Assembly (NCBI GenBank): GCA_963971425.1
Contig: OZ020524.1
Location: 23,055,022-23,119,021 of the forward strand
DNA from: Bryoerythrophyllum caledonicum
Lineage: Eukaryota; Streptophyta; Bryopsida; Pottiales; Pottiaceae
Direction of reading: 5' to 3'
DNA: 64,000 bases
Below the pieces are notes generated by a model. It saw only the letters and a program-made list of their open reading frames with translations. It searched no databases and was not told the DNA's origin. This document shows, in pieces, positions 13,877 to 58,913 of the stretch (positions are counted from its first letter, which is position 1; each line of letters begins with the position of its first letter). The translations under genes and the position numbers were made by a program.

Positions 13877-13887
13877 AAGAAGAAGAA

Positions 13888-14030
13888 GAACGCCGGTACC
13901 CGAACGGGTACCGGCGTGAATAAAGTGTCTGTTCGTTCCACTACCAAGACCATGTCCACCGGACAAGGAATTAGTGAGCTGGAACTACTTCCCCCTTTCG
14001 AGAGTAGACACTATGTAACGAGAAACCTGA
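13888..14030 (-). other. Conserved 3' end and terminal hairpin of LINE copy 1
   Basis: In sense orientation the last about 150 nt before the tail match copy 2 at about 90 percent. It ends in a perfect hairpin (13891-13918): a 12-13 bp stem built on CGCCGGTACCC with a four-base loop, followed by a TTC microsatellite tail (13877-13890) instead of poly(A). This is probably the structure the reverse transcriptase recognises. Confidence 0.75.
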
Positions 14031-14114
14031 ATCCAGCCAAATAAACAACCAACCATGAACTAACCAACTAACCAAATCAGCAGCAAAAACACACAATTAG
14101 TTAAACAAGAAGTG

Positions 14115-17100
14115 TTAAGGTAGCGAAGTATTTAAGGGGTCTTGTGTATCAGGGAGGGCTTGGTTGTTTTCGATTTTGCGTTTATGCAGTAAAATGGACA
14201 TGGCATGTTGGATAGCGATGGTGTTAATGTTTTTAAAGGTGGTTTTAATTGTTTCAATGGGTATCTTGAAGGTATCCTCTAGTGTTTTCATAGATGGGAT
14301 AAAGGTGGTGGCACGAGCGCCAGATGTGATTACCATGAGGGGGTCTACATTCCATCCAAGGGCAGTGATGTCGTCAATAAGGGGTTGGTATTTATCTATT
14401 TTATTTTAGATTGTTTCAGGGGAAAATCTATCGTTGCAATATGTGAATTCAATGAATTGAATGGTGTAGTCTTGGTTAATGTTTTCAGGTGGTGGGTCAT
14501 TGTATGGTACACCTTTAACACAAAGGATGTCCGGTTTGAGCCTAGTGTTGCAATGACATCTTTGGGTCATACATGAACATGGGAGTAGCCAAGGGGGGAC
14601 CGTATTCTCCTGTGGATTGTTATTAAAAGTGTCGGCGTTCATTAGTATAGAGCATCTTGATTTATTGTAGGAGGTGATTAGTTTTCGGGCTTCCCATACC
14701 GCTTTATTGTGTCTTTTAACAATTAGAGAGTGTATGTGGTGATTTTGGCATTTGAGTAGAACATGAAGCCATGTGTCGGGGTCCGTTGAGGGGCATATGG
14801 GGCATGTTATGGATGGGAATCTTTCTATTCCAAAGAAGAGTTGTTTGCGAGCGTTTCCCATATACTGACCAGTACGGAATTTGATGAGGCATGTTATATG
14901 CGAGTCTCAGATGATGGGGTTTTTCCAAAAGTTTGTAGAGAGTTCATTGTCTATGTCATTATTGTTAGTCCATTTTTCTATGTTAGGAATATTTTCTGAG
15001 ATTGTGTCAAGGTTGTTGTATAGGTCTTGTTTTTTGAGATACTTGCCCAAGAATCAAATTGGGCATTTGTCGGGGGTATCTTCATTGGAAGGCCAATCTT
15101 CTTTTTGAAAGTAGTATGGGATAGCATGGGCATGTTCGTGTGGGTCTCTGGCATTTTCGTGTGTTTTTTCGCAGCCTTCTTTTGCTAGTTTGTCTGCTTG
15201 TTCGTTGCCATCAATGTTGGCATGGGCTCTCACTTTGTGGAGGGTTGTGATTTGTGTTCGGTTTTGTAAGATTTGGACCATCGATGTTAGTATGGTTTGG
15301 TCGGGGTGGCTATTATGAAGGGTAGGGTGTGTTATTTGAGTGTTTAGTAGGTAGAGTGCATTTATACAATCGGTGAATATATGTGCGGGTTCATCCTTGT
15401 ATTTAGTTGTGATGATTTGTAGTGTTTTGTGAATGGCCATGAGTTCTGCTCTGAGGATATTTTGTAGTCCATGAAGTCTTTTGGTTAATTTAATTTCTTT
15501 GGTAGAATTATATATACCATAGCCAGCTTTTTCTCTACGCCAAGAGCCCGAGCTAATTTGTTCTGGTGGTTTAAAGGAGCCATCGGTGTAATAACTCTGT
15601 GTGGGATTAAATTTTGGTTTGGTATGGGTTGGGTAGTCTGGAAGAGGGGGAGGTATGACGGAGTAGTTTAATGTGTTGTTGACATTGTTTAGTTTTGACC
15701 ATTTTTTGCTTTTGTTTACGAGGGTTTGTATGGGTGTTGGTGGGGCCAGTTTTGTGTATAGTCGGTGTATGTCTAGACTGTCTGTTATAGAGGTAAGCTC
15801 CGCAAGTTGTTCTAAGGAGCCAAGGGTTTGATTTTGATGATGGACGCATAGTATTTGTAACATGGATGGCTCTATTCGGGGTTTTTTTAGCTTAGGTGGA
15901 ATAGTAGGTTCTTCGTATGGTATTGTGTCTGCTTCAAATAATGCAATGATATGGGAGTCTGGGAATGGGTTTGAATGTTGGTTGTTATTTTGGTACCAAT
16001 TATTGTTCGGTGTGATGATGATTGTTTTTGTGTTATTTGGATCGTGTTTTGCGGCAAGTCTAGCCCAATGTATGGCTTGTTCCATGTCTTTCTCGTTGTG
16101 GGGGTGAGCTTTACCATTACCGATCCATTTATAGTCAAAGGCTTTGCCTAGGGATTCAAATATTTTGTCTCTTTCATAAGGTGAGTAGAATTTTTTTAGT
16201 TTGATAGAACATGTGACCGGGGAAGAAAAGTATGATTGTTCGATGTTAAAGGATGAGATCAGTGAGTCTAAAATGGGAGTGGGTATTGTGTATTGCGCAT
16301 TTTTTTGGGGGTCAGTTTTTGGTATTCGGTATTTATACCTATGGTAAAGCCATATTAGTTCGGTTTCAAAAGGTTGGGTCGTTGGTTTGATGTTTGTAGG
16401 GGTTTGCAATTTTGTATTATATTGATTCCATAACCATTGAAGTCGAGTGACAGTGATGGTGTGTAAATGTCGGCCATTTTCTTCGTATAGATGTGCTTGA
16501 TTGTTATCTATTTGAATTGTGTTTGAGGTTGTAACAATGTCGTTTCCGGGATTGCATTCTGTTGTGTAGATGTTTAAGAGTGGGCTGATTATGGGTGGTG
16601 TTACGGATCTTGAGTCTGAGAATTGTTCTTGGGGGTGGTGGGCTAGGATGATATCCCAGTATATTTTGTTTTGAATTTTTTGGTAGTATTGTTTTAATTT
16701 TTCAATGTTATGTGTGGAGGTATTGGTGTTGTGTCGTGGAAAAAGGTCTCTTTGAGGAAGCCATTTATTGTATGTATTATTATTGTGTTTCCATTGGCAT
16801 AAATATTTTGTGTAGGTATTTTGTATGTTGTTTGTGTCTGTGTGTTGGATATGTTTATGGCATATGATGTTATTAATGGGATATGTGGTGGGGTTTTTGG
16901 GGATGTATGTTGGGGGACGGGGATGGTATGTTTGTGGAGGGTTGGGGGGATTGATTGGTATGGGGCTATTTCTTGGGGCGATGTTATTGTTGAGGGCGAT
17001 GAATGAATCTTTAAGTATGTGAAAGTATGGGTGTATGTTACAAGGAGTATGACATGTAATGGGGCATGTAGGGTGGCAAAATAGTTGTTTAGCAACATTT

Positions 17101-20100
17101 AGGGCACTTTTTAGTAGTTTGGATGGGGTGAAATGGTAGGTTTTGAAGTCTTCATTGTTCATGATGTGTGTGCCATTGGGTAGAGTAATTTGGGTTAGTT
17201 CAAAAATATTTTTTGAGAGGAGTTTTTGTAGGAGCTTTTGGGAGAGTTGGGCATTGAGTGTGTTGTGGTTTAGTGTTTCTTGGTGCCATAGTATTTCTAG
17301 TGATGTAGGATTTATGAGGAAGTTTGGGAGTGTACTTTTAAGGTGGGCTTTAGCTATATGTTTTAATAAGAAGAATGTTCGTGTTATTGGTGATCTTATG
17401 CAGTCACTTTTTTAAATTCTGGGTATGTATTTGGCGCCACCGTGTTGGGCAAGGACATATTGAGTTAATCCATTATATATTTTTCCAAGTCTACCTTTAT
17501 CGTTTAAAGCATTTTGTAGTTGTTCGCCTATACATCGAAGATATGCGTTTTTGAGGGAGAAAGCTTCAAGTCCAAATAGGTTATGTGGGAGTTGGGTTAT
17601 GGCATTTGACATACATTTTGGTAATCCATATATGGCTTTTTGTATGGCTATTATTTTTTATCAAGTTTTTTGATAGCTGGCATAGAGTATGGTACACTGT
17701 AGAAACTGTAGGCCACACCTAGGCGTAGTACGGTATCAACCATTTTTATTTTTTGTTTCATGGTGGCTGGGCATGTTGTTAGTTCTTTGCATTGTTTGAT
17801 GAGTTTCGTGGTTGTGGTATATATTTGTATTTTCCATTTTAGTGAGGGAACAAGGTTTGTACCTAAGTATATATATGGTTCATTTTGATGTAGTATGGGG
17901 ATCGGTTGGTTGCGGTAATTGATGTTATAGGCTTGCATTAAGGCTTTGAAAGTGGTAGGGTTCAGTTTGGATTTGTTTGGGCATCCGGTAGCGGCACATT
18001 TTGGGACACCTACGTCCAGACCGGCCCATTTACAATATCTATCAATTTTATTTAGTTGTATTTGTATATGTTTGATTTTGTTAGTTATGATGGCGAGGTC
18101 ATCTGCATATGCGGCGGAGTTTATTGTGACTTGTGATGTTCCAAACCTGTATCCGTTGTTGCCTCTTTCTAACCATCTGAGTAGTGGTTCTAAGAATATA
18201 ATGAATAAATATGGGCTAAGGGTGTCTCCTTGTATAGTTCCTCTTTGTATGGGTATAGGTTTTGTTTTTCCAAAGTGTTCACCAATATAGTAGGTGGATG
18301 ACTGGGAGTAGATGTTTCCTACAAGTGTAGTTGCATCTTTTGGGTAGCCAAGGTCCATCATTATTGTTAGTAGTCGGACATGGTCTGTTGAGCCAAAGGT
18401 GTTTTTAAAGTCAACGTATAGTATGTATATATCTTGGTTAGTGAATTTTGCGTCTTCTAGTGCGGCTATTATAGTTTGCATTTGTCAAGCGGTACTTCTC
18501 TCTGCTCTAAATCCTTCTTGACTATCATGTAGGATTTTGAATTTTTTACCGTATGAGGATAGTATGGAGGTAAGTGTACTAGTGAATAGTTTGTATATTG
18601 TGTTGGCTAGTGCAATTGGCCTATGGTTGGGTAGTATAGATGGGTCACCTTTTTTGTATAGTAAAATTATTGCACTTGATTTCCATGAGGTCGGTATTTG
18701 TTTTTGTTTATAGCAGTGAGAGAAGAATAGGAATAGAAGTTTATGAAATCTTGGAGGTAGGTTTTTGAGTATTGAGTTTGGTATGCGGTCTGGGCTTGGA
18801 GCTTTGTTGTTACCAAGATTTTGAAGGCATGTATCGTATGTGGCTCTGTTAAGGTATTGATGTAGTGGAATTTCTGGTTCACCTCTTTTGTCTAGGGTAT
18901 ATCCATCTAGGTCATGCCATGGGTATTGGCGTACTGCACATGTACATTTGTTTTGATGTTGTGGTTGGTAGTTACAAGTTGGTACCGTTGGTCTATTGGT
19001 TTTTGTTTGTTGGTTGAATATTTCATTCACAATGTCTTCGGGGCTAGTTAGAATATTATTAAATTGATCTGTGATACAATTTAGTGGTGGGGATTCTAGA
19101 TTCTTAAAGACTCTTCTGTTAATTTTCTTAGGGCTAATTTCATATATTTGTCTATATTTTGAGATGGCTTTTTTAATGTTATCTTTGGTGTGTTTTGAGG
19201 TTATTTTTCTGGCTTGTATGTTGGCATTTTTTGCAATTAGTGCGATATCATTTATCCATGTATCGTGGGGCATATCCGGAGGCGGTGGGGTAGGGATTTG
19301 GGTATGTTGTAGAGTTAGTAGTTCATTACATATGGGGTGGTTGCGCCATTGAGGATTATTTTTTACAAGTCTTATAGTTTTTCGTATAACATGGTATGTA
19401 GTGAGGTGTTGTTTCCAAGTTTTAGAGAATTTGTGTGGTAAATATCCTCCTTGTTGAGATGTTCTATTTGTTAACTGGGGTGTTGGGTGGGCTCTACAAG
19501 TGTGTTCTAGTGTGTTGGAGATTTCTTTGATTAGTGTGTCTAGGATTTCACATGCTTCTTGCCATTGTACTCGTGATAGTTGATTGTTATTTTCAAGAGT
19601 ATTTTTGAGGGAGTCTATTAGCATGGATTGTTCTTCAAAGAATTTTGTGTTGAATTTTTCTAAGTTGCCTTTTGGAATGGGGTTGAGTATGTGTATAGTG
19701 TCATTGTTTAGGATTGTGGGTGTTCTATTAATTAAGGTTTTATTTGGTATGTGTAAATGTATAGGTGTGTGGTCCGAGTTGAGAATAACATCTTTGTTTG
19801 TTGTAGAGGTATATTGTGTATTGTTGTTGGTATTTATATAAAATCCATCTATTAGGCTCCAATCGCTATAATTATAGCCGCCTTATCTAGAGAATTGTGT
19901 GTCGGTTTTTATGTAAGTGAGGTTTAAGTTTTCTGTGAAGTGACGCCATTGGTAGTCTATGGTTTGGGGAGGGGTACTATGGTTTCCGTTTTGGCGTCCA
20001 ATTAATGCTATATCTCTATTAAAGTCTCCGCATAGTATATATGTGTAATTGGGGTTGTTATTTATTTGAGATGTGATAGTGTTTTGAATGTCATTGATGA

Positions 20101-21185
20101 ATCTAGTATCTTTGGGGTGAGATGGCATATACATGTGGAGGACTAGCCATGGTTGTAGTGGATAATTAGTGATTTTGATTATTTGAAGGTAAGGGGATAT
20201 GTGCATTGGAGTGGGGATTTTTTTTATGTTGTCCGGGAAAGCATATTTTTTATGTATTAGTGTAAGGAGACCACCGCGTCCCGGTGTGTATGGTCTCTGT
20301 TGTTGAATACATCTTGTAAGTGCATGTGTATTGTTGAAAATGAGTTTATAGTCTTGAAATAAGTTTTGTATATATTTTGTGGATTTTGTGGCGGATAGTT
20401 TTGTTTCTTGTATAACTATAATGGCTGGCGTTGTGTTTGTATGTGTAACCAAAGTTTGTAAGCTGGGGAGGGCGGTGTTTAGAGAGGAGGCATTCCATGT
20501 GATTATATATGTATTTTCTTGATTTGGATTATTATTTTGGTTTTGTGGTCGTAGGTAAGGGGGTGGGGGGGGGGTGGGTATATTATGGTATTTGGTCAAG
20601 GCATTTTAGTGATTCAATAATTAGATTGTTGGGAAGGTATGGAAATTTTTGTTTTATAAGTTCTTGTGATGGTGGTATATGATGCTTGTGTATAAAATCG
20701 TATAGTTCTTTATGTATTGATTTTTTATGGTTTATAATATTTTGGTTATTTTCAATGAACGATATATAGGGGTGTGGGGTGTTGATGTGTCTTTCGGAGG
20801 GGTTTTGTAGATTAGCAAGGGAGTTTAGTAGTGCATTAGTCCATTGAGTTATGTTTGGGTTTTGTTGATTTAATAGGAGGTTACATTCGTCTACGTGTGG
20901 GTGGATTGTAGTTACTATGGCGTGTAGGATATGTGGTAAGGGATGTTCGTTTTGTTGTTGTATGTATTGGAAAATGTGTGGGTGTGTGTTGGCGTATGAT
21001 AGGTGTAGTGTATGTGTGGATTTTAGTATAGGTGCGAATGATTGGGCGATATGTCTATATTCCGGTTGTAATTTTATTGTGTTTGGTATGAAATATATTT
21101 TGGCATTCTTTTTGTGTTGTGTTGGGTGTCTTTTTAGTACGTTTGGCATAGGTCCTGGGTTGGTTTCTATGTCTCCTCCAAGTAT
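14115..21185 (-). pseudogene. LINE copy 1 ORF2 remnant (2A, AP endonuclease, RT, RNase H, CCHC, R2-type nuclease)
   Basis: Reads from the 2A motif at 21185-21150 to the stop at 14115 and would code for more than 2,200 residues if open. AP endonuclease: ITWNASS, IQETK, GDFNRD (near 20030) and SDHTP (near 19775) are intact. RT: PDRIPNSILKN, GFRAERST, VDFKNTFG, QGDTLSPYLF and YADD (18098-18109). RNase H: YTDGSF, AELMAIH, FTDCINA and ANIDGNEQADKLAKEG, all four acidic positions present. Then C-x2-C-x9-H-x4-C and RHN, and KPDILC...IEFTYCNDR...KIDKY. Stops are seen at 20583, 19883, 18485, 17412, 15054, about 14910 and 14406, most explained by one transition in a CAA, CGA or TGG codon. A one-base loss in an A-run near 17655 and length change in a C-run near 20570 shift the frame. 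Confidence 0.85.
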
Positions 21186-21210
21186 TAGTAGCAATTTATA
21201 ATGTGGTGGT
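21150..21210 (-). other. 2A-type ribosome-skipping motif in LINE copy 1
   Basis: The minus strand codes HYKLLLILGGDIETNPGP, ending at 21150. This fits the canonical 2A signature D-(V/I)-E-x-N-P-G-P with a Leu-rich helix just upstream. In 2A the ribosome fails to form the last Gly-Pro bond, so the upstream and downstream products are released separately. Here it would part a Thr/Lys-rich leader from the endonuclease-RT polyprotein, which starts PMPNVLKR. 2A-like motifs are known in some trypanosome and animal LINEs. Confidence 0.85.
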
Positions 21211-21219
21211 TTGATATCA

Positions 21220-22100
21220 TTTTTAATGTTTTCATGTTTTTTTGTTTTTCTAATATATATATATATTTTTTTTTTGTTTTTGATTTTATCCTTGTATTGA
21301 AGGATGTGGGTGTTATGTTTTCTTTCTTTTGAGTGGGTTTCCCTTGGATTGAGTTTCTTAGGTTTGTTGTTTTGTTTTGGTTTATTGATTTGTATGTTGT
21401 TTTTGTTAGTTAGTTTGGTGTTTGTTTTTGTACTTTGGTTTGTGTTGGTTTTAGTGTGTAGATTTCGATTTGTATTTTTGCGTTTTTTTTCGTATGTGGT
21501 GGAGTATTTGTGTGTGTGTGTGTGTGTGTTGTGGGTAGTATTTTTATTTGTATATTTTATTTTGTGCTTTTTTAATTGTATGTGTTTGTCTTTGTATGTA
21601 TGTGGGTGTATGTATGTGTTTCGTTGGTGGTGTGTGGTTGTCGTTGTGTGTGTATATGTAGTTGTGTTTGGTTTTATATTAGTATTTATGTGTATGTTTG
21701 TATAGGTGTGCGCCTCAGTATTCATCATGGTATTTGTAACAGTATTCGTATTAGTATTTATGTTGGTATTCGTATCAATATTTGCACTAGCCTTTGTATT
21801 AGTATTTGTATCGGTATTCATAATAATAATGTTCGTATTAGTAGTTGTACAAGTATACGTTTTAGTATATGTACCAATATACGTATCAGTATGCGTTCCA
21901 GTATACGTATCAGTATGCATTCCAGTATACGTTCCAGTATTCGTACCAGTATATATACCAGTATTTGTGTCAATATACGTACTAATATACGTACAGTATA
22001 CGTACCATCGTATGTACCCGTATTTGTTCTAGTATATGATCCAATATATGTATCATCGTATGTACAAGTACTTGTACTAGTATTTGTATTGTATTTTATA
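21220..22100 (-). repeat. Minisatellite-coded Thr/Asn/Lys-rich region of the LINE
   Basis: At 21715-22100 six- and twelve-base units of the type GTATNN repeat many times. On the minus strand this stays open (ATG at 21920) and codes for Thr-x-Thr-Gly and Asn-Thr repeats. A TG dinucleotide run at about 21510-21530 codes for His-Thr repeats, and a Lys-rich stretch follows before the 2A motif. The protein region is low complexity; it could be a nucleic-acid-binding leader or merely tolerated expansion. Confidence 0.6.
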
Positions 22101-22377
22101 CTAAATGTTGTATAGTATTGTATTGACTCGGGATTTGTGTATGTTTTACGATGTAGTATTGTGTTGTCTTTGATACGGTATAAATACTTGTGAGGTCTAG
22201 TACAATATTGTATTGTGTATTTAAAATAACGTCTAATACAATGTTTGTTTAATGCAAGTAGTGGTATTTGTATGTAGCTAAGGTATGTAGGTATTTGTTC
22301 TAGGCTATACTTTCTATTCCATAATGTTGTAGAGGAAGTGTAGAGGTGGTAAGTAGGTTTTGCCGTGTGGTCTTTGA

Positions 22378-24024
22378 TCATTGCATGTTTAGCGGTTTGT
22401 CTTGGAGGAGTGGTAAGTTGGGTTTACCGGTCACGGCGGACATTTTTTGAACTAGGGAGAACATGGTTGCTTGGATGTTCTCCATGTGGAGCTTGAGTTC
22501 TTCATGCTTCATGACGGTGTAATCTTTGTTTGCTTGAATCACCTTTTTGTTGTTGTCTTCGATCATTTGTTCTACTTCCTTCGCGGTGCAATAAGGAGGT
22601 GATGATGGAGGGGCTTGGATGTTGAATGTAGTGATTGTGTTGATGAGGGCGGTGTTGATGTCGTCGAAGCCGAAGTCTTTGATGGCATCGGCGGTGGGTG
22701 GATGTAGTCCTTCCAAGCTCCTTGGATGTGGCAAGAAGTCCACGTAGTTCCCATCTATCACATGGGTCTTTTTCACAAAAGTTCTATATACAATGGGGTT
22801 AGCACAAAGTACATTGCAACTTCCATTGTGGTAATTTTCTCTCTCTATGGTACCAAATCTCTCTTACGTTAAGGGCTCCCATGATCTTGTAAATTTCTTG
22901 TGAGGTGTTCATAGTGTTCAAAGTGATAGGAAGGGAAGAAAGGGTAAGGGTTATAGCTTCTTTCTTTGCCTTTGTTTCGATTACTCCATTTGGTCCTTTG
23001 GTGTCAACTACTTGCCTTGGGAGTAGGATTTCGTTTTGCACCACAATGCAGTTGGTGATCATGTTCTTTACTTGTGTTGGTGTTGAGGCTATGATGAATG
23101 CCCATGATTCACCATATACCTTTTGCACGTCGGTTACCTCCTAGTCATGCCCTTGGGCAAAGCTATGCCCAAGTATCTCTTCAAATACCACTTGGGCTGA
23201 AATTGCCTCTAGACACTCGCTTTTCACTTTCAAAGAAAGGTTAGAACCTTTAGAGAGGTTGTTAAATGTTTTGCAAACTTTCCCAACCACATCTTGACCA
23301 TCAATGTGCAAGATGAACACTCTAAGACCTTTAAGCAATGCAAGACCATCAAGTTTGGGTTTGAGGAGATGTACCTTGAAGCTTCCCACCCATACTCCCT
23401 TTATTTTTCCTTGTTTGATGCTAAGACATGGGATGTATAAGGGATCGTACACACCAGTGCCAAGTATGATGTTCATTTTCTCCAATCTTTTTACAATCAC
23501 GTTTTTAGCCGTTTCATACATGATAGGGGTGTTAGGTATTTCAAAATGAATGGCAATGTGGAATTCAAGGACAAACCTGTGGATTCGTTAGTCTTGACTT
23601 CACACGGAAGTTGCGTGATGTTGTAGTGTTGCTTGGCAACACCTTTCCTTACCTCCATGGAGTACAAGACTTGCGGGATTTGAGGGAAAGCCACCCTCGC
23701 ACCGTGGGCCTCTTTAGCCTCCTCTTCTTTTAGTCCTCTAGTTATCATGTCCATCACCGTTTCACCACTATAAAGATCTTCAGCTCCTTCTTCCATGGCA
23801 AGTGCTTCCATGGCCTGAAATCCCATCCAAAACTTGTAAGTTGTAAAGGTGGGTTTAGTGGACTTACCTCCGTTGGCGTTGGACCTTTTGCTTCTCTTGC
23901 TACTGCTGGTTTTGCCTTTTTTACCTCTTGATGTCTTTGATTTTGTGGTAGTGTTGGGGCTTTCGTCCATTTGATCCACCATCTCTAAATCTATCGATAG
24001 ATTCTTCCTTGCGGTTCCTGCCAT
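22378..24024 (-). pseudogene. LINE copy 1 ORF1-like remnant
   Basis: Four consecutive minus-strand stretches (24024-23497, 23521-23141, about 23128-22799, 22776-22378) read as one protein of about 540 residues broken by a frameshift near 23510, a TAG at 23141 and at least one further break near 22790. It starts with ATG at 24024. The N-terminus has a Lys/Ser/Arg-rich cluster (KSKTSRGKKGKTSSSKRSKR, about residues 27-46), reminiscent of nucleic-acid binding or nuclear import. The C-terminal piece has a likely coiled coil (about 22580-22430, EVEQMIEDNNKK through HEELKLHMENIQ). No RRM or zinc knuckle is seen, and I do not recognise the middle part. Its position inside the target duplications and ahead of the endonuclease-RT frame suggests it is the element's ORF1. 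Confidence 0.55.
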
Positions 24025-24059
24025 GTTAGTTGTACGTCTTTCTATTGCTACTGATTTGC

Positions 24060-26292
24060 ATAATGTGTCTAAAACTAAGTTGTGGGGAAAAAATAGGTCG
24101 CTGCGGGGGGAGGGGAGGTCGTTATGTGGGGGAGGGGGTCACAAGTTGTGTGTGGGGGGTCACTCTTAGTGGCTGGTAGGTCGCTAAGTATATTTGATGG
24201 ATTTCTAGAGTTGGTTGGGGGGTCTCTATGGATTATGGGGAGGTCGCTAGTTGGGTTTAGTAGATCGCAGGGGGGGCTTGGGAGGTCGCTAAACACGTTC
24301 CTGGGGTCGCAAGGGGGGTTCACTAGGTCGCTACTCTTTCTTGTCGGGTCGCTGGGGAGGTCGGGGTCCGGAGAAGGGAAGGTCGCTGCGGGGGAGGCGA
24401 GGGTTGCAGGCTTACAGCCTGCGAGGGGGGTCGGGGTCCGGAGAAGGGAAGGTCGCTGTGGGGGAGGCGAGGGTTGTAGGCTTACAGCCTGCGAGGGGGG
24501 TCGGGGGACTATCTTCCTCGTGCGAGGGCGGTGTTCTCCTTGCGAGGGGGTTCTGGGGAGTAAGGATTAGGGCTCGGGGAGGGAGGGTTTTAGGTTGGGA
24601 CTGTAAGGTTTCGGGATGGGGAGGGAGAGGGGCAAGTCGGGGAGGGAGGGTGGTTCTCGCCTCTATCGAGAGTGAGGGAGGACATGGGATGCCGGGAGGT
24701 GGAGTTGGCGGGGAAGATGAGTTTGAGAGAGGGGGATAGGGGGTGAGGTCCGGAGGGGGACAGGGAGTGAGTCCGGGTGGGAGGCAGGGGGTACTGAGTA
24801 GGGGAGGGCAGGGGGTGATGAGTAGGGGAGGGTAGGGGTCGACAGGGGAGAGGAGGGGCGGGGTGGGAGAGGAGTAGGGGAGGTTAGAGTGATGTGTGTT
24901 GTGATGTGGGTGGGGTGGAGAGTGAGGTGGGTGTGGGGTGAGAGGGGTGTGTGCGGTGTGATGAGAGGGAGAGGGGATCTGTGGTGAGGGAGGAGAGAGT
25001 GGTAGAGGGAGCTGCGAAGATGGAAAACGAGGGTGTAGACAGAGGTTACTTACAGCTGCGTTGTCTTGTGTTGCATCTTGTTGTGATGTTGATGTGTGTT
25101 TTCCCTTGGTGTGGTATTGTTGCGGGTCGCTCCCTCCTTTGGCGTACTTGTTTGCAGTAGTCTTGATGCGAATGCCTCCTTGTGTTGTGTCCTTGTTGTG
25201 CGATCTTGTTCTTCTGATGTGGAAAGAGTTGGTGTGGATTCGATGGTTGTTGTGTTGCGTCCTTGTGCACTCCTGTCTTGGTGTTGTTTGCTTTGGTGCT
25301 GATGGTGTGCTGCCTTGCTGATTCTGCGTAGGGAGACCCAGATCTGGAATTTTTTGCAAGCGCTTCCGCATGCGATCTAGATCCACTAGTTTAGTGTAGT
25401 TTTTTAGGTTTTTTGTGTAGATCTGTACGTGTGTGTTGTTCTGGTGAGGTTTTGGTGTACTACTACTGGTGTGTGTATGTGGAGAGGTACAAGGTGTTAC
25501 TAGCATTTGGAGAGTCTATTGTAGAAAATAAATGTAGATGGATAGAGAATGCCTGATATGGTGTGTCGTTGCTGCCTTCGAGCAGATCCTCGAGGTGTAT
25601 TTTGTTGAGCTTCACTCCAGAGGTTATTCTGCAGCGATGTCCTCCAAATCTAGTGCATAAAATCTTTGAACAGATGATGTTAGATCTCTTTTGTAAAGTG
25701 TATAATTTTCTGTAAGAACATGTTGATACTGTGGAAATAACAATGACAAAGAAAGGAAAGAACACAAAGGTGAAGGGGGGGTAAGAGATAGCCTGTAAAT
25801 GGTGGTGCAGACATGGCTTCCAAAGAGTTGGTGTGTGCTTGTGTCCTCGTAACAATGGTGGCTCCTCGTGTTGCTCAATCTCTTGTATGATGGGATCGTG
25901 GATCAAGGAGGAACAAGGGCTGATTGGTGGACATGCAGATCTCAATCTAACTATACTCGATCTGGACAGATCTAGAGTTGAGACGGGTCAGTGAGTTCAC
26001 ATCTGTGCAACAACACTCATTTCCCACGCTTCAGATTCAACTTGCAACGATCTCCTTCAACGACTTGTCCATCACCTCACAAACTTCCAGATCCAATGTT
26101 TTGAGCGCTTCCAACAAGTGTGATCTGCCTGCCCAACCTCACCAACGTCTAGATCTGGAACAATGTGGGCTCACAGTAAGGCCAACAACCTCTCACTACA
26201 CATCCCTCAAGATTCTAGACTAAGTCCTTGTGCCTCCCCTCACCACGAATTGCGGAGCTCACTCTCTACTCATCTGAGTCCCTGCGAATGTT
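24060..26292 (-). other. Long 5' leader of LINE copy 1
   Basis: About 2.2 kb between the 5' target duplication and the ORF1-like start. 24060-24350 has about ten copies of a GGTCGCT-type motif on the plus strand. 24361-24500 is a 70-bp tandem duplication, and 24500-25020 is strongly G-rich on the plus strand (C-rich in the RNA). A long Pro-rich frame on the minus strand (25506-24412) follows from this composition and is not taken as a gene. The leader probably contains the internal promoter. Confidence 0.5.
24361..24500. repeat. 70-bp tandem duplication with a stem-loop in the LINE leader
   Basis: Units 24361-24430 and 24431-24500 differ at only two positions, both C versus T. Each contains a short inverted repeat around CTTACAGCC (GCAGGCT/AGCCTGC in unit 1, with a 3-base loop). 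Confidence 0.9.
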
Positions 26293-26585: not shown

Positions 26586-26593
26586 GTTAGATA

Positions 26594-27760
26594 CTAATTT
26601 GCCGTAGGCAAATGACGCACTTCTAATCCTTCAAAATATTGACAATATTTTGCAACAATCTCTTGAAGTTGTGGAAATAATTGATTAGTATTCCACGTGC
26701 CATCTAGCCCTAAAGCTAAACCACATCTAATCATAGATTTACGAGCAGAAGACATATTATCACAAACTAATAACTGATTAACTTCTTCAATGGAATCGGC
26801 CGCCAATTGGAGAAAAAATCTTTTACCGAGATTAAGAAGTTTACCGGACCATTGATTGTCACCGCGCGGAATATTTTGCCATGCATCACTTTGAATGAGC
26901 TCCGCTTTCTTCATTTCCCATCGCCTTGTCCACGCATCTTTAATCTTTGAAATAATGAAAGTATCCGCGAGTTGACATAGGGGAGTGGCACATGGAGGTA
27001 AATATCTTAAAACGGTTCATTTTTGGACTAATACCTCTCCTAATCTAGGGGTTAAATTATGGCCCGAACAATTATCAACCCACACTATTTTTGTACGGTT
27101 TTAAATGTCGGGTTGAAATGCTTGTGGTTCTTCAAAGTATTGAGGAAAGATGGATTGGTCTATCCATCCTTTCGGGCCCGTACGGTAACACACGCCGGGT
27201 ATAGAATCTTCTAATCCTCGGATAGGATAATTTCAATTTTCATTGCTAAATATAATCATGGGGGATTCTATCATTGTCCTACGTCCGCCCGAAATCCTAA
27301 CAACCATTGTCATTGATTCTCCTCCCGCAACTACATCGGCATATTTTACCGAACAATCTCTACGAAACCCCAATGTTCTACCGTTGTCCATATTTATGGT
27401 GAAATTTGTCTCATCTAAATTTTCAACAAGATTCTCATTAAATTCACCGGATGCAAAACCTCGTTGCAAAAGTCCTAAATGATGAGCAACATTCATTTCT
27501 ATTTGAGTCTCTTTTTCCGGGCTACATGTTAACCGACCACGTTGTGAAAGAAAATCTATGTTATTTGCATCCATAAAATGTTGAATCCATGAGTATGTGA
27601 TTTTATCTTTTGTAGGTCTATCATCTTTGGGGTCCTGAGAGTGTGCGGTATAAGGAGTGCGGGCGTTCAACCCGGGGCTGCCACACAACGATTTGTCTTC
27701 GATCATCCATGCATCAACGTTTTGGCGGGTTTGTATAGTTGAAACCTGCTGCAAGGCTTA
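26594..27760 (-). pseudogene. DDE (pogo/DDE_1-type) transposase remnant
   Basis: Minus-strand remnant of a transposase that would cut and join the pogo-like element in which it lies. Acidic catalytic positions are recognisable in order: LDETNF (Asp at about residue 114 of the longest piece), WVDNCSGHN, and CQLADTFIISKIKDAW, the arrangement of DDE_1 proteins. A well-preserved C-terminal part runs from MKKAELIQSDAWQN to HLPTAN at 26594. At least three in-frame stops (27233, and near 27103 and 27050) break it. The N-terminal DNA-binding (HTH) part upstream of 27760 is not clearly seen, so the gene may be truncated there or have an intron. Confidence 0.75.
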
Positions 27761-28529
27761 CGGCTGTGGTGCGCGAACATCGGGCTCCATCCCTGAAAAA
27801 TGAAAAACGGAGTTAACGTTTATGATTCCTACTAGGCGTTTCAATAGAGGATGAAAGTCATCCATGCCTACCAGTATGTGTAGACGGCCTCGGTGGTAAT
27901 ACAGTCATTGCGTGACTGATTGCAATAGTGACAACGTTTGCAGATGGTATGATGATTGATGGCGCTGATGGTATGTTGCGTCACACTGTCATTGTTTTTG
28001 GCTCGTCACTACGTCACTGTTTCTTTCCCTGCCCGCATGCGCTTGTTTTATCCCATAACTCTTGCCTGCATAATCGCCCCACCCCAAAGTCCTAAAGTAT
28101 AAGCCCCCCCCCCTCGGGTCGAGTAGACGAACGATCATAAATAATTATGTTGCTAAGAAATCCTCCACTGAAAATTAAAAAACAGGCATCAGAAAAATCA
28201 CTTTAGGGCACTAGAAAATATGGGCAGAAAATACCAGTGCATCGTCAAGAACTCTGGAAGCATGGAAGCATGGGACGAGCATGGAACCCTGAAATCTTGC
28301 ATAACCCGAAGAGTAGATAACCCCAAGACCAGGCTCACCTCACACATGTAAACTCAAAGATGCAAAGTTTCCTAAATGCAACATCAAAGTTCAAGAGTGA
28401 TGAAATCTGCAAAAGCAAAAAGGGATAATATGGGATTGAGAATGAGGGTAGGTGGTCAATTAAGGCATGGCGGCCGGGTAGGTGGTTGATTGGGGTATCA
28501 TTGATGATTTTGGTGGCTAACACTATTTA
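27761..28529. other. Right internal region of the pogo-like element
   Basis: About 770 bp between the transposase remnant and LINE copy 2. It would carry the transposase promoter and 5' coding part. No confident coding sequence is recognised; a nine-C run occurs near 28104. Confidence 0.4.
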
Positions 28530-28538
28530 TAAACTTAT
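28530..28538. repeat. Target-site duplication of LINE copy 2, 5' side
   Basis: TAAACTTAT, repeated exactly at 35772-35780 just after the T-tract that ends LINE copy 2. Confidence 0.75.
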
Positions 28539-28547
28539 AACAAAAAA

Positions 28548-28607
28548 CCCACCTACTACAAACTATTAATATTAATCGGAGGGGACATAGAGACTAACCC
28601 ATGACCT
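28548..28607 (+). other. Broken 2A motif in LINE copy 2
   Basis: Codes KLLILIGGDIETNP followed by TGA (28602-28604) and CCT. The essential glycine codon GGA seen in copy 1 has become a stop, so this copy cannot make the 2A junction. The ATG at 28608 directly follows. Confidence 0.85.
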
Positions 28608-31600
28608 ATGCCGAACGTATTAAAAAGACACTCCACTTCACACAAAAAGAATGCCAAAACATATTTCATACCAAATACCATAAAACTACAACCCGAATAC
28701 GCACACATCGCCCAAAAATTTGCCCCCCTTTTAAAAACCACACATATATTACATCAACAACATAATCACGCATACCCACATATCGCCACATATATAAACC
28801 AACACAACGAACATCCTCCATCCCACATTCTATATGCCCTAGCCATCACTATACACCCCAACATAGACCTCTGTAATAAACTCCTAAACACACAAAATCA
28901 AACCATAACCCAATGGACCAATACACTCCTTCACACTCTACATAATCTACAAAACCCCCCCGAAAGACACATTAGTACCCCACATCCTCATACAACATTT
29001 CTTGAATCCAACTTAAACATCATAATCCACAACACATCCATAAACAAAGAACTATATGACTTTATACACAACCAAAATACACCCCCAACAAATGACATAT
29101 TAAAACAAAGATTTCCCTACCTCCCTAACACTATCATAAACGAGGCACCAAAATGCCTAAACCCCCTTCCGGAATACACTCATCCACCCCCACCACGAAA
29201 CTACATCCCACCACAAAACCACAACCCACATACGAACAACAACAACACAAGCATAATAACATGGAATGCCTCATCCCTAAACACAGTGCTCCCAAACCTA
29301 CAAAACATAATCATACACACTAACACACCACCGGCACTCATAGTCATACAAGAAACAAAAATATCGACCACAAAATCCACAAAATACATACAAAGACTAT
29401 TTCCCGACTACAAACTTATTTTCAATAATACACATGCCCTAACACGATGCATACAACAAAGAAGACCATATACACCGGGCCATGGGGGCCTCCTCACCCT
29501 CATACACAAAAATTATGCCTTTCCAGGCAATGTCAGAAAAATCCCCACCCCAATGAATATATCCCCATACCTCCAAATTATGGAAATCTCCAATCACCCA
29601 TTACAATCATGGCTAATCCACCACATATACATGCCATCCCACCCCGAAGACATCAGACTCACCAAGGACATCAAAACTAACATCACCACCCATATCACCA
29701 ACAATCCCAACCACAACGACATCTTATGTGATGACTTCAATAGAGACGTTGCCCTCATAGGTAGACAAAACGGAAACCAACACACACCACCACAAATAAT
29801 AGACCTACAATGGAAACAATTTACTGAAAATTTAAACTTCAATTATATTCCCACAAACACTACATACTCTAGACAAGGAGGATACAACTATAACAATTGG
29901 AGCCTAATTGATGGATTCTACGTACGTGCAACTAACCATACCACATTTACTTCCACAACAGACAATAACATTCAACTGAACTCTGATCACTCACCTATAC
30001 AACTCCACATCCCAAACAACACATTTATAAACCGTACACCAACCAACACAAACAATGACCACATTCGTATCCTCAACCCCATCCCACAAAACAGCATAGA
30101 ATTATTCAACACAAAATTCTTTGAGGAAAACTCACTACGCATTGACTCTCTAATAAACGAATTGGAATCTAATAACCATCTTTCCCAAACACAATGGCAA
30201 GTAGCATGTCACACCCTAGATACACTCATCAACAACATATCCAATACAATTGAACAAACTTGCAAAGCCCAACCCATACCACAAATGACCAATCGAGCAT
30301 CACAACAAGGGGGATATTTACCCCGGAAACTATCTAAAACATGGAAACAACATCTAACAATTTACCACACCATACGGAAAACCATAAGAATTGTAAATAA
30401 CAACCCCCAATGGCGAAACCACCCTATTCTCAACGAACTCCAAAACCTTCAACACACACAAATCCCTAATCCACCCCCCATACACCTACCTCACGACACA
30501 TGAATAAATGACATAGCATTAATTGCAAAAAATGCCAACATACAAGCCCAAAAAATCACCACTAAACATACCCAAGAAAACATTCGAAAAGCCATCTCCA
30601 AATACAGACAACTATATGAAACTAGCCCCAAGAAAATAAACAGAAGAATATTCAAAAATATGGAGTCCCCACCATTAGACTGCATCATTGACCAATATAA
30701 CAATATACTAACTAGCCCAGAAGACATTGCAAACGAAATATTTAACCAACAAACAAAGAACAACACACCTACGGTAAACACATGCAACTATCAACCTGAC
30801 CACCGCACTACATGCACATGCGCAGTACGACAATATCCATGGCATGACCTGGATGGATTCACATTAGAAACAAGAGGAGCCCCGGAAACCCCACTACACA
30901 CATACTTTAATCAAGCTACATATGACACATGCCTACGTAACCTAGGAAACAACAAAGCCCCCGGACCAGACCGCATACCGAACTCTATCCTAAAAAATAT
31001 GCCCCCTAGGTTCCACAAACTACTAAACCTCTTCTTCTCCCACTGTTATAAACAAAGACAAATCCCCGCTTCATGGAAAACAAGTGCAACGATCCTACTA
31101 TTCAAAAAAGGAGATCCATCCATGCTACCGAACCATAGACCCATCGCACTAGCCAATACCATCTATAAACTATTTACGAGCACATTCACATCAATACTAT
31201 CATCAAATGGCGAAAAATATAAAATACTGCATGATAGTCAAGAAGGATTCCGCGTAGAAAGAAGCACCGCTAGACAAATCCAAACAATAATAGCCGCATT
31301 AGAAGATGCACGATTTACAAACCAAGACATATTTATACTGTATGTCGACTTTAAAAATGCCTTCGGCTCTATTGACCATGCTAGACTTTTAGCCATAATG
31401 ACGGACCTTGGATACCCCAAAGATGCCACCGCACTAGTGGGAAATATATACTCCGAATCCTCAACTTCCTACATAGGAGAACACTTTGGTAAAACTAAAC
31501 CCATAGCCATCCAAAGGGGAACAATACAAGGAGATACCCTAAGCCCATATTTATTTATTATATTCCTAGAACCACTACTTAGATGGCTAGATAGAGGCAA

Positions 31601-34600
31601 CAATGGATACACATTCGGGACATCACAAACCACCATCAACTCCACAGCATACGCGGACGACCTTGCGGCCATAACCAACGAAATCAACGCCATAAAAATA
31701 CAACTTAACAAAATAGACAGGTATTGCAAATAGACAGGTATGGATGTAGGGGTCCCAAAATGTGCCATCACTGGATGCCCAAATAAATCAAAAACAAACC
31801 CCACCACATTCAAAGCCCTAATACAAACCTCTAACATTAATTACCGAAACCAACAAATACCCGTTCTATACCAAAACGAACCATACACATATCTAGGAAT
31901 AAGTCTCGTCCCCTCCCTAAAATGGAAAACCCAAATTCATGCCACCACCACAAAATTAATCAAACAATGCAAAGAACTAGTAGCTTGTCCGGCCACTATG
32001 AAACAAAAAATAAAAATGATCGACACAGTTTTAAGACCGGGCGTGGCATACAGCTTCTACGCAGTACCATACTCAAAGCCCGCCATAAAAAAACTGGACC
32101 AAAAAATAACTACCACACAGAAAACCGTATGTGGCATGCCAAAATGTATGTCTAATATAATTACCCAACTACCACACAACCTCTTTGGACTAGAAGCCTT
32201 CTTACTAAAAAACGCATACCTTAGATGCATAGGAGAACAACTCCAGAACGCTCTAAATGACAGTGGCAGACTTGGAAAAATATACAAAGGCCTAACACAT
32301 CACATCCTCGCACAATGTGGGGGGGCAGAAAACATACCTAGAATAAAAAAGACAAACTGTACAAGATCACCAATAATACGTACCTTCTTCTTACTAAAAC
32401 ACGTAGCAAAAGTCCACCTAAAAAGCACTCTCCCCAACTTTCTTACAGAACCAACAACACTAGAAAAAGCCTGGACTCTTGAAACACAAAACCATAATAC
32501 ACTCAACACACAATTATCCCAAAAGTTATTACAAAAACTCCTAACAAAAAATATCTACGAACTAAAACAAATCTCCCTACCCAACGGAACACACATCATG
32601 AACAATGAAGAATTTAAAACCTACCACTTCACCCCATCAAAACTTATTAAAAGTGCCCTAAAAATTGCACGACAACTCTTTTGTCACCCAATATATCCCC
32701 CCCCACCCAATACACATACTAATACACATACATACTCTCATACAATTAGAGACCCATTCATCACTATAAACAACGACATCACCCCAAGAAATATCACCAC
32801 ACAATCGATACACCCTCCCCACTCCCACCCCCACCCCCACACTTACAACAAATGGCTCCCCCAAAGAAACCTCTTCCCAAGACACAACCAAAACACCATT
32901 TCACATAACACAAATAAATTGACACAATATTATCAAAGAACTCAACACAAATTCTACACTGAAATTATCCAAGTTCACCACCTACAAAACCAACCCTAAG
33001 ACACAAGGTCCGTCACCCCACCCACAATAATCCCCCTACTAAACATCTACACAACCGAATGCAACCCCGAAAATGACACTCTTACCTCATCTAACACAAT
33101 AAAAATTGACAAAGACCAAGCACACTTGTACGAAGAAGATGGAAGGCATCTCTTTACCATCCTAATCACTAGGCTCACATGGTTGTGGAACCAATACAAT
33201 ACCAAACTACAAACCCCTACAAACATTGAACCATCAACCCAAGCGTTCGAAACCAAAGACATCTGGCTATACCAAAGATACAAATATAGATTACCAAAAA
33301 ATAACCCCCTTAAACTTACGCAATATACACTACCCATACCCATACTTAATTCGCTAATTTCCACATTCAACATCCAACACTCATATTTCTCCTCCCCCGT
33401 CACATGCCCCACCAAACTCAACAAATTTTACTCCCCCTTTGAAAGAGATAAAATATTCGGATCACTAGGCAAAGCCTTTGACCACAAATGGATAGGTAAT
33501 GGTATGGCCCATCCACACAATGAAGAAGAAACACAACAAGCTCTACATTGGGGCCGCCTCGCGGCCAAACATGACCCAAACCACACCTCCACCCTAATCA
33601 TAACCCCAGACAAAAACTGGTACCAAAATCATAATCCACACTCGGGCCCCTTTCCCGATTCACACATCATCACAATATTCGAAGCGGATTCAATAACATA
33701 TGAAGAACCCACCATCCCACTAGATCTAGATCTAAAAAAACCCAGAATTGAATCATCCACTCTACAAATAATATGCATCCACCACCAAAATCATACTCTA
33801 GGCACACAAGAACAACTAGAAGAACTCTCCTCCATAGCAAAGACTCTAAACATACACCGGATACTCACAAAATTGGCCCCACCAACGCCAATGCAAACAC
33901 CTGTCAACAGAAGCAAAAAAATGGTCAAAACTACACTACAATAACAATACACTAAACTACACCTTAACACCCCCACCCCTCCCGGAGTATCAAACTAACA
34001 CCCCACCTAAATTTAACCCCGAATATAGCTACTATACTGATGGCTCCTTTAAACCTACAGAACAAATTAGCGCGGGATCTTGGCGCAGAGAAAAAGCCGG
34101 TTATGGAATATACAACGCTACGAAAGAAATCAAACTAGCCAAAAGACTACATGGACTGCAAAATATCCTCAGAGCAGAACTAATGGCCATCCACAAAACA
34201 CTAGAAATCGTCTCAACAAAATACAACAATGAATCGGTGCACATATTTACATATTGCATTAACGCACTATATTTATTAAACACCCAAATAACACATCCTA
34301 CCCTCCATAATAGTCACCCCGACCGAATCATACTAGAATCAATGGTCCAAATGATACTAAAAAGAGAACAAATCACAACCCTCCACAAAGTCCGAGCCCA
34401 TGCTAATATTGATGGCAATGAACAAGCGGATAAACTTGCAAAAGAAGGAAGAGAAAAATCACATAAAAATGCCAAAGACCCACATGAACACGCCCATGCC
34501 ACCCCTTACTATTTCCAAAAAGAAGATTGGCCCTCCAAAGAAGACACCCCCGATAAAGGCCCGGTCAGATTCCTGAGCAAATACCTCAAAAAACAAGACC

Positions 34601-35493
34601 TACATAACAATCTTGACACAATCACATACAACTTTCCTAACATAGAAAAGTGGACTAACAACAATGACATAGACAATGAACTCTCTACAAATTTTTGGAA
34701 AAACCCCATCATCACCGATTCACAAATAACATGCCTTATCAAATTCCGTACCGGTCAATACATGGGAAACGCCCGTAAACAACTCTTCTTTGGAATAGAA
34801 AGATTTCCATCCATAACATGCCCCATATGCCCCTCAACGGACCCCGACACATGGCTACATGTTCTACTCAAATGCCAAAATCACCACATACACTCCCTAA
34901 TTGTTAAAAGACATAACAAAGCGGTATGGGAAGTCCGAAAACTAATCACCTCCTACAATAAATCGAGATGTTTTATACTAATGAATGCCGGTACTTTCAA
35001 TAACAATCCACAAGAAAATACGGTCCCCCCGTGGCTACTCCCATGCTCATGTACGACCCAAAGATGTCATTGCAACGCTAGGCTCAAACCGGACATCCTT
35101 TGTGTCAAAGGTCTACCATACAATGACCCGCCACCCGATAACGTCAACCAAGACTACACCATTCAATTCATTGAATTCACATATTGCAACGATAGATTTT
35201 CCCCGGAAACAATCCAAAACAAAATAGGCAAATACCAACCCCTTATTGACGACATCATCGCCCTTGGATGGAATGTCGACCCCCTAATGGTAATCACATC
35301 CGGCGCTCGGGCCACCACCTTTATCCCATCTATGAAAACTCTAGAAGACACCTTCAAGATACCCATTGAAACAATTAAAACATCCTTTAAAAACATTAAC
35401 ACCATAGCTATCCAACATGCCATGTCCATTCTTCTACATAATCGCAAAATTGAAAACAACCAAGCCCTCCCCGATACACAGGACCCCCCCTAA
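28608..35493 (+). pseudogene. LINE copy 2 ORF2 remnant with two endonuclease domains
   Basis: About 2,290 codons from the Met after the 2A remnant to the TAA at 35493, collinear with copy 1. AP endonuclease 29245-30030 (IQETK, SDHSP; GDFNRD has become DDFNRD). RT 30800-32150 with PGPDRIPNSILKN, VDFKNAFGSIDH and YADD (31650-31661). Unassigned conserved domain 33360-33720 (ITPDKNWYQN, GPFPDSHII). RNase H 34030-34450, where the FTDCINA aspartate is Tyr (34249-34257 region). CCHC about 34815-34900. R2-type nuclease-like domain 35085-35350: KPDIL, IEFTYCNDRF, KIGKYQPL, TSGARA. Stops at 30501, 31731 and 32997 and an extra A in an A-run near 33918 disable it. Confidence 0.85.
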
Positions 35494-35771
35494 ATTCTCC
35501 CCCCGCCTTGATTTTCATGATTAGTTGGTTTTAAGGTTTTTGACTACTTGCCTTGTTTGTGGTTAGCTCGTTGGTTGGTTGCTTGGTTTGTGATTCGTTG
35601 GTTGGTTGGTTGACTTTGGTTTCTTGTTACATAGTGTCTACCCTCGAGAGAGGGAAGTAGTTCCAGCTCACTAATTCCTTGTCCTGTGGGCATGGTCTTA
35701 GTAGTGGAACGAACAAACACTTTATTCACGCCGGCCTCCTCCGGAGACCGGTGTTTTTTTTTTTTTTTTGG
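35494..35771 (+). other. 3' untranslated region, hairpin and T-tail of LINE copy 2
   Basis: Contains a GGTTG/GGTTT-rich stretch (35525-35625), then a block nearly identical to copy 1 (from ACATAGTGTCTAC to CACTTTATTCACG), then a hairpin at about 35730-35753. The stem base CGCCGG/CCGGTG is shared with copy 1, while the upper stem is CTCC/GGAG with a 3-base loop and one mismatch. A T-tract (about 35753-35769) follows. Confidence 0.75.
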
Positions 35772-35780
35772 TAAACTTAT
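35772..35780. repeat. Target-site duplication of LINE copy 2, 3' side
   Basis: TAAACTTAT, identical to 28530-28538. Confidence 0.75.
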
Positions 35781-35782
35781 TC

Positions 35783-35844
35783 ACGAATAGTGTACAAAGG
35801 TAAGTACACTACTAGTGATACTCCACTGAAAGTGGTATTTAGTG
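35783..35844 (+). repeat. Right terminal region of the pogo-like element
   Basis: Ends ...GTATTTAGTG followed by TA. Its inner part (AGTGTAC.AAGGTAAGTACACTA) matches the left end of 58914-59900 in reverse complement, confirming family membership. Confidence 0.7.
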
Positions 35845-35854
35845 TAGTACCAAG

Positions 35855-36155
35855 TTCAACATGACTATCAAAGTTAGACCATGTGTGGTGCAAAATTTTG
35901 ACGCCAAGTGTAGTCAAATTTTGTCAATCCTCTCATCATAGGAAAGAAAATGAACATTTTTCTTCACTTTAAACACTATAATCTCATAATTTGTATGTTC
36001 AAAGTGTATGAAACTTTGTAAACATGTTAGTACTTAAGTCTAAATTAAGATCCTATAGTTCAAATTCAAAATGGCGCTTTTTGTTACATCCTTTATCTTT
36101 TCATCAAAATGGGCACTTTTGAAGTGCAATTTTAAAGTGTAAAGTAGTAGTTAAA
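35855..36155 (+). repeat. Partial copy of the CCCCTAA-family TIR element
   Basis: Matches 54040-54340 in the same orientation: TTAGACC.TGTG..GTGCAAAA, GGAAAGAAAATGAAC, AAAC.CTATAATCT, GTCAAAGTGTATGAAA and AGATCCTA. Neither TIR is present. It directly adjoins the pogo-like element, which probably inserted into it. Confidence 0.65.
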
Positions 36156-36736
36156 ACCTACTAATATACAATGGAACATTTGACGATAGCCACCATACAA
36201 TTTGTTCTATCTACTTTGAGAAGCACAAATGGTAATTTTTTAAATCACTAAGTACAAAGCTAATCAAGTAATAGGTACTTAGTCAAGCCTATGAATTATT
36301 TATGAAATCTATAAGTTATCTTGTTTGTTTTTACTTGAACATTGTTGTAATTCTATGCTGAGTTAGATTTCCCCTTGATTGTTTAAGTCAAACTAAATTA
36401 CATAATATGTAGTATATTTGCATTCTAGCTATTAATTTGCAACCTAAATCTAATTTATTTTGTATTTTTTAATACAAAATGATCTTGAAGACCAAGTAAA
36501 TGATGATTCAATATAGCACCATCTTAATGATCGCATACAATACATGCAATAAAGATATTCACAAAGCACTTGAGAGTTTGACTCGGAGTTGATTAGACAT
36601 TAATGATGTTTGTCAACCCTTGTATGCATAACATTCTATAATGATCTATAATGATTTTGATGATTTTGAATACATAAACAAATATTTTCAATCCATGGTT
36701 AAATTCCAAGTTAGCGCCACATAACTCTTAACCACG
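36156..36736. other. AT-rich intergenic sequence
   Basis: No gene, long repeat or RNA gene recognised. Confidence 0.4.
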
Positions 36737-36741
36737 TAGAG

Positions 36742-36986
36742 TGTCACGACTCCACCCGTAGTGACAGCTTGACTTAGCGGTTACATTACGATTACAGGGA
36801 TAGAATCCTATATAAAGTTAGTAGCAAGAATGTATATCTCATCTGGCATTTTGTAATACTCTGTAATGTTTTCGTTTAATGAATATGATGTCCATTAATT
36901 CAGTTTGCATTCTTCATGTTCTTGAAAGATGACATTGAATGCGATTGCAGTCAGAATGTGAACCGTTCCGTTCTCAGTTCTTGACA
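36742..36986 (+). repeat. 5' LTR of the Ty3 element
   Basis: 245 bp. Opens with an inverted pair TGTCAC/GTGACA (36742-36766) and has a TATATAAA box at about 36809-36816, probably the element promoter. No standard primer-binding site was recognised just after 36986. Confidence 0.95.
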
Positions 36987-37300
36987 TATTGCCAGATCAC
37001 AAAACTGTTCATATTCTGCCGCGATTGCAAGCAGGTTCGGAGATCAGTGGTGATTTTTAAATACTGATCAACTTCAGGTCATGAGTGAAATAGTTTGGTG
37101 AGATTATGCACCTCAGTTTTTTCGTTTTTTTAAATAGAAACAATTCGTCAGCAGTAAGTGGATTGAGATAATGCCGATGCAGTTGTCCTCCGGAGAAATG
37201 GATAATTGCCGGTGGTTTTTCGGAGTGACATTCCGGTTGATTTAATCAGTCATGAAATAAAAAATTGTTCAGTATTCCTGGTGCGGATCAAGGAGAATTA

Positions 37301-58888: not shown

Positions 58889-58913
58889 ACTAAGGACATT
58901 TTTCAATACACTA

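Follow-up and report, generated by a model that had tools for sequence, protein, structure and literature searches.

A multicopy LINE family with two putative endonucleases and a PCIF1-like domain in a plant-like genome

RESULTS

The 64,000-nt stretch of DNA analyzed here (the window; G000:C12:23055022-23119021 of a 437-Mb plant-like genome that was searched) contains two copies of a long interspersed nuclear element (LINE), which form inverted repeats of a single element. Copy 1, on the minus strand at 13877..26292, is full length (12.4 kb) and is flanked by a 12-bp duplication, TACCCCTTCCTT, at 26304-26293 and 13876-13865; this sequence has no other exact match on the minus strand of the window. 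Homology with another genomic copy, e14, starts at the 5′ end of copy 1 (26292). A minisatellite of 16-bp, AAGTTTACTTTTTCAA-like units borders copy 1 on either side; its arrays lie at 13703-13875, 26293-26591, and 59010-59451, and copy 1 sits in one of them. Copy 2, on the plus strand at 28539..35771, is 5′-truncated and decayed. It is flanked by 9-bp duplications, TAAACTTAT, at 28530-28538 and 35772-35780, with no other plus-strand occurrence within 28000-36500. The truncation falls just upstream of a 2A motif. The first-pass annotation had placed the element start at 28608, which does adjoin this motif; the insertion itself begins at ~28539.

In copy 1, a low-complexity spacer separates open reading frame 1 (ORF1) from a giant ORF2, which lies behind a canonical 2A motif. 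ORF2 contains an AP-type (apurinic/apyrimidinic) endonuclease, a reverse transcriptase (RT), a chromodomain-like segment, a PCIF1-like domain, RNase H, a CCHC zinc finger, and an R2-type restriction-like endonuclease (RLE). The coding strand is A+C-rich, with strong strand asymmetry at 14000-22000 and 28000-36000 and a sense-strand GC skew of about −0.4 to −0.5 in many 2-kb steps; from this A/C-rich strand, the encoded proteins are rich in Thr, Asn, His, and Pro.

Every motif quoted for copy 2 in the first-pass annotation was located in the expected order on the plus strand: IQETK (29346-29360), (D)DFNRD (29727-29747), and SDHSP (29979-30011) of the AP endonuclease; YADD of the RT (31647-31667); the CCHC finger (34819-34875) and RHN (34906-34926); and KPDIL (35086-35103), IEFTYC (35167-35187), and K..KY (35221-35244) of the RLE. 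In copy 1, these features follow one another in identical order along the minus strand. The motif given as (G/D)DFNRD is present, but copy 2 reads DDFN in place of GDFN, a decayed form. Further signs of decay in copy 2 are three in-frame stops (ORF ends at 30503, 31733, and 32999), a frame change near 33850-33944, and the replacement of one RNase H Asp by Tyr.

Profile searches identified most of the enzymatic domains. The AP endonuclease of copy 1 (20512-19748, minus strand) matches Pfam Exo_endo_phos (7.7e-7). The corresponding part of copy 2 (29241..30011) has no Pfam match at E up to 0.1 and a partial NCBIfam xth match (6.9e-5) that is far under its cut-off. The RT of copy 2 (30837..31922) matches RVT_1 at 2.3e-22, while that of copy 1 is split into two pieces (5.8e-18 and 0.0042). 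RNase H was detected in both copies (1.6e-12 for copy 2 at 34024..34458, plus strand; 1.7e-13 for copy 1). The C-terminal part of copy 2, at 34558..35490, comprises a linker, the CCHC finger, RHN, and the RLE series (PD, E, and K..KY).

A Pfam search of the RLE returned no match, and its profile gave only weak matches to unrelated proteins among PDB sequences (0.044 and 0.45); fold comparison was therefore needed. The structure predicted for the C-terminal domain of a relative matches the R2 RLE fold, and the catalytic residues are kept in the alignment (D in 36 of 41, E in 39 of 39, and K in 39 of 39 sequences). Scanning the RLE alignment over viral and genome contig collections revealed no relatives. 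Thus, the R2-type RLE proposed at the C terminus is borne out by the modeled fold and conserved residues, while the Pfam part of the proposed check came back empty. The presence of an AP-type endonuclease and an RLE in one reading frame, the AP domain recognized by Pfam and the RLE by its predicted fold, is supported.

For the RNase H-RLE segment, the genome-wide search scored 79 copies, a lower bound that includes the window’s own; they are 93 to 100% identical. One copy, e49, near G000:C12:15.74 Mb (loci L049 and L050), has an uninterrupted 2151–amino acid (aa) frame running from the AP endonuclease through the RLE. The frame stops at a TAG a few residues short of the usual C terminus, and the 2A motif and N-terminal part are in a different frame; e49 is nearly, not wholly, intact. 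Relatives in a protein collection drawn from ENA, JGI, and LGN and one metagenome-assembled genome record from NCBI numbered 138 matches for the RNase H-RLE part, 504 for the RT, and 33 for the PCIF1-like region. One of them, P0241 (1112 aa, from public contigs), joins in one frame the post-RT region, the PCIF1-like domain, RNase H, the CCHC finger, and most of the RLE. An additional family copy lies upstream of e21 (G000:C7; L047 and L048) and covers the PCIF1-like to RLE part at ~72% identity.

Ratios of nonsynonymous to synonymous substitution rates (dN/dS) were calculated for e49 against five other copies, so that e49 is common to all comparisons, many of which have dS >1. The values were 0.06 to 0.11 for the AP domain, 0.06 to 0.08 for the RT, 0.11 to 0.18 for the post-RT region, 0.11 to 0.22 for the chromodomain-like segment, 0.10 to 0.15 for the PCIF1-like domain, 0.09 to 0.17 for RNase H, 0.09 to 0.20 for the CCHC finger plus RLE, and 0.17 to 0.23 for the part after 2A. 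Since e49 is a mosaic, dS of the RLE is just 0.05 to 0.08 in four of the five comparisons, and the RLE ratio therefore rests mainly on e49 versus copy 1 (dN 0.030, dS 0.343). Compared with e14 in 500-base steps, e49 is 69 to 80% identical until RNase H and 92 to 98% identical from there on, as if two subfamilies swapped 3′ parts through template switching.

Among solved structures, the RT profile scored highest with vertebrate R2 proteins (131 bits for R2Pm and 121 for R2Tg), followed by human L1 (82.7) and R2Bm (73.6). In a midpoint-rooted tree of 18 RTs, 11 family members form one branch (100/100), and the family lies outside both the branch of three R2 RTs (97/95) and that of human L1 with three L1s of the host (99/96). 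Several end branches in this tree are long, and R2Bm has an odd letter make-up. P0133, one of ten chosen relatives, was left out, its RT motif not having been found. By this tree, which spans R2, L1, and the dual-endonuclease family only, the family RT would be neither L1 nor R2. The two findings that had been named beforehand as counting against the annotation, a C-terminal domain without PD-(D/E)XK similarity and an RT within L1, were not obtained.

The ends of the element were mapped as well. The 3′ end was found by motif in copy 1 and in 26 of 30 loci, copy 2 among them. Most 3′ ends have a hairpin (ACGCCGG..CCGGCGT) followed by a (TTC)n tail, and a few have T-rich tails; in copy 1 the hairpin (13917-13890, minus strand) is followed by TTC repeats, and in copy 2 the hairpin (35728..35754, plus strand) is followed by a T-run. 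By eye, changes in the stem between copy 1 and e14 preserve pairing; the hairpin region folds as RNA mildly better than shuffled sequences (z of −2.1 and −1.1). Target-site duplications are 9 to 12 bp long in the three mapped insertions, which are copies 1 and 2 and e14 (G000:C10; full length, ~14.3 kb, with an 11- to 12-bp duplication). The 3′ flanks of 27 sequences differ by eye (L005 and L006 are alike), and site-specific insertion into 28S rDNA, a trait of R2, was not observed among them. Specificity for the 16-bp minisatellite, an idea prompted by the site of copy 1, was rejected on the same flanks. Taken as a whole, the duplications, hairpin, tails, and differing flanks look like the products of target-primed reverse transcription.

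ORF1 of copy 1 (22378..24024, minus strand) has broken frames and looks RRM-like by eye. An ORF1 upstream of ORF2 is common to copy 1, e14, and e24 at the DNA level, and e21 and e49 have an ORF1-like protein that resembles it by eye. No Pfam match above cut-off was obtained for a 543-aa stretch of the e14 ORF1 protein, in which two RRM-like stretches can be read by eye; PADR1_N (0.0066, under its cut-off) was set aside.

The 2A-like motif GGDIETNPGP of copy 1 is located at 21150..21179 (minus strand), where LLLILGGDIETNPGP agrees with the 2A consensus D(V/I)ExNPGP; its counterpart in copy 2 (28578..28607, plus strand) carries a stop, TGA, at the Gly codon of NPG. The form preceding ORF2 is YYKLLILIGGDIETNPGP in most copies and YKLLLILGGDIETNPGP in copy 1. 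The pattern is present in 7 of the 12 copies examined, including copy 2 with its stop. Of the other five, e02, e05, and e11 have alignments that start further 3′, and e17 and e21 span the site but do not match the pattern exactly. A DNA pattern for 2A, composed after the motif was known, had two matches in the window, both in element copies, against a chance expectation of 0.00. Upstream of e02 (G000:C3), a fragment (L031 and L032) carries the variant GGELEINPGP, which is outside the search pattern.

A PCIF1-like domain, of the cap methyltransferase fold, was found at 15720..16583 (minus strand) in copy 1 and at 33033..33902 (plus strand) in copy 2, with PCIF1_WW matches of 1.2e-10 and 1.7e-10. 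The model predicted for this region matches the methyltransferase fold of human PCIF1 (residues 417 to 668). Designed TPR proteins ranked above PCIF1 for this region (best 0.004 and 0.082, compared to 0.32 and 0.76) and were set aside because fold comparison and Pfam favor PCIF1. PCIF1/CAPAM is a human adenosine methyltransferase specific for the mRNA cap, and NPPF is its catalytic motif. In copy 1 it is replaced by HPHN, within 16112-16089 (minus strand), and its Asn appears in none of the 35 alignment rows with letters at this position (33 His, 1 Phe, and 1 Ile; 2 of the 37 rows are gapped). Judged from these residues, the domain is apparently a catalytically dead relative of PCIF1; lacking the catalytic Asn, it is most likely an RNA binder rather than a methylating enzyme. 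A chromodomain-like segment was tentatively assigned at 16677..16886 (minus strand) in copy 1, its counterpart in copy 2 including 32844-32876 (plus strand).

The window also contains a P-type Ca-ATPase gene, which resembles plant ACA8-10, and an O-FucT gene. The plant-type L1 zf-RVT domains of the genome and this Ca-ATPase make a streptophyte host likely, which may be a land plant or a charophyte alga. A chromovirus-type long terminal repeat (LTR) retrotransposon at 36742-42481 has an aspartic protease, RT, RNase H, integrase, and chromodomain, with LTR-like repeats of ~250 bp that are 95 to 98% identical and 5.5 kb apart. A minus-strand ORF at 27233-27754 resembles by eye a piece of a DDE-type transposase, with no Pfam match at 0.01. 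Inverted repeat arms of ~200 and 100 nt (56636-56930 and 58595-58890) are 91 to 92% complementary and 1.7 to 1.9 kb apart, and direct repeats in three adjacent blocks (47155-47394 and 50748-51006) are 84 to 91% identical and ~3.6 kb apart.

DISCUSSION

The best interpretation, to which we assign a probability of about 0.85, is that the element is an autonomous LINE (non-LTR retrotransposon) belonging to the Dualen/RandI type, with its two endonucleases. Dualen is described as encoding an AP endonuclease and an RLE with RNase H (PMC4640811, PMC3636483), and the label “Dualen-like” given at first pass agrees with this domain content. LINE/Dualen is also given for cryptophytes (PMC12747079). Judged by its sequence, the element is a true LINE with two endonucleases that agrees with Dualen in domain content and carries extra modules, and its domain build is unusual for the LINE class. 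Among the titles and abstract openings listed for Dualen, for PCIF1 in retrotransposons, for chromodomains or 2A in non-LTR elements, and for RLEs in mosses or algae, none describes the whole combination of dual nuclease, PCIF1, chromodomain, and 2A; those retrieved for a PCIF1-type fold held no report of one within a retrotransposon, and those on restriction-like endonucleases with moss, charophyte, or green algae held nothing on LINEs.

In the mechanism that we propose, 2A would free the ORF2 protein (ORF2p) from an N-terminal leader during translation, and ORF2p would then recognize its own RNA by the 3′ hairpin. After one of the endonucleases had nicked the target, the RT would carry out target-primed reverse transcription, extending from the nick with the (UUC)n tail as template. 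The RLE/CCHC module would grip target DNA, as in R2, and make one nick, with the AP endonuclease making the other, in either order, and RNase H would clear the template. Instead of methylating RNA, the PCIF1-like domain most likely binds it, perhaps at the capped 5′ end, and the chromodomain-like segment might anchor the complex on chromatin. A bolder proposal is that a LINE captured a PCIF1 fold and disabled its catalysis to obtain a reader of its own capped 5′ RNA end, so that two nucleases of differing descent, one per strand, together with a chromodomain-like tether, couple both RNA ends to both nicks; we offer it as speculation that is probably not right.

The dual-nuclease state could have arisen twice, if an R2/R4/NeSL-like RLE element acquired its AP endonuclease, RNase H, and remaining parts independently of Dualen. 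The RT profile, nearest to vertebrate R2, speaks for this origin, though Bombyx R2 scores below human L1, as do the PCIF1-like, chromodomain-like, and 2A modules, which are outside the Dualen features given in partial descriptions. However, R2 forms its own supported branch from which the family is separate, and AP endonuclease, RLE, and RNase H are the very set described for Dualen; we regard a second origin as unlikely, if still worth serious consideration. To much the same degree we doubt that a single nuclease is still active while the other, be it RLE or AP domain, is a relic used for DNA binding. LINE groups other than Dualen do carry one nuclease or the other (PMC3636483), but the RLE residues are kept and dN/dS is low in both domains, with the RLE value depending largely on a single pair of copies.

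Two further explanations are far less probable. The host genome has 150 scored matches to zf-RVT, a plant L1 domain, and a C-terminal CCHC knuckle of an ordinary plant L1 could in principle be mistaken for an RLE; the RT tree, which places the family outside the L1 branch, leads us to reject this identity as very improbable. Still more remote is an artifact of nested LINEs or misassembly that joined an AP-type to an RLE-type element. The locus is rich in transposable elements, and e49 is itself a mosaic of two subfamilies, but the domain order is identical in two copies of opposite orientation, the RNase H-RLE part recurs across the genome, and P0241 joins several domains; the unbroken 2151-aa frame of e49 contradicts such an artifact.

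With a multicopy dual-endonuclease family in a plant-like genome, one that keeps long open frames and has numerous relatives among public contigs, it becomes possible to test how the two nucleases share their work. The position of Dualen has been taken as showing that AP-type LINEs arose by replacement of the RLE (PMC4640811). If true, a PCIF1-type fold in a retrotransposon would add a new component to target-primed reverse transcription, and a working 2A would show StopGo put to natural use within a plant-like host; a 2026 survey reports no StopGo/2A use by plant viruses (PMC12846837).

Comparison with known systems places these features in context. R2 shares with the element the C-terminal linker, CCHC finger, and RLE fold, and the RTs of vertebrate R2 are the nearest among solved structures. 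R2 is not known to have an AP endonuclease or RNase H, and it inserts in 28S rDNA, whereas here the 3′ flanks vary between copies. Plant L1 elements, which occur in the same host, are not known to carry an RLE, and their RT is on a different deep branch from that of the family. They have an AP endonuclease followed by the RT, with RNase H in some (PMC4640811). The fold of PCIF1/CAPAM is as in the element, in which, unlike in PCIF1/CAPAM, NPPF has become HPHN or similar and the domain sits in a retrotransposon polyprotein. 2A motifs are reported for trypanosome, sea urchin, and other LINEs (PMC4981915), and the motif with a preceding hydrophobic run is common to trypanosome L1Tc, the sea urchin elements, and the family, in which it belongs to a LINE with two endonucleases and a plant-like host. 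Dualen/RandI of Chlamydomonas and relatives differs in its hosts, the host here being streptophyte-like; 2A, the PCIF1-like domain, and the chromodomain-like segment are not among its features in the partial descriptions. For RandI, the tabulated repeats are (ATT)n and (CTATTT)n (PMC3747384), while the tail here is (TTC)n. As far as those descriptions go, the two share 3′ repeats other than poly(A) and the combination of an AP endonuclease, a PD-(D/E)XK-like RLE, and RNase H in one element.
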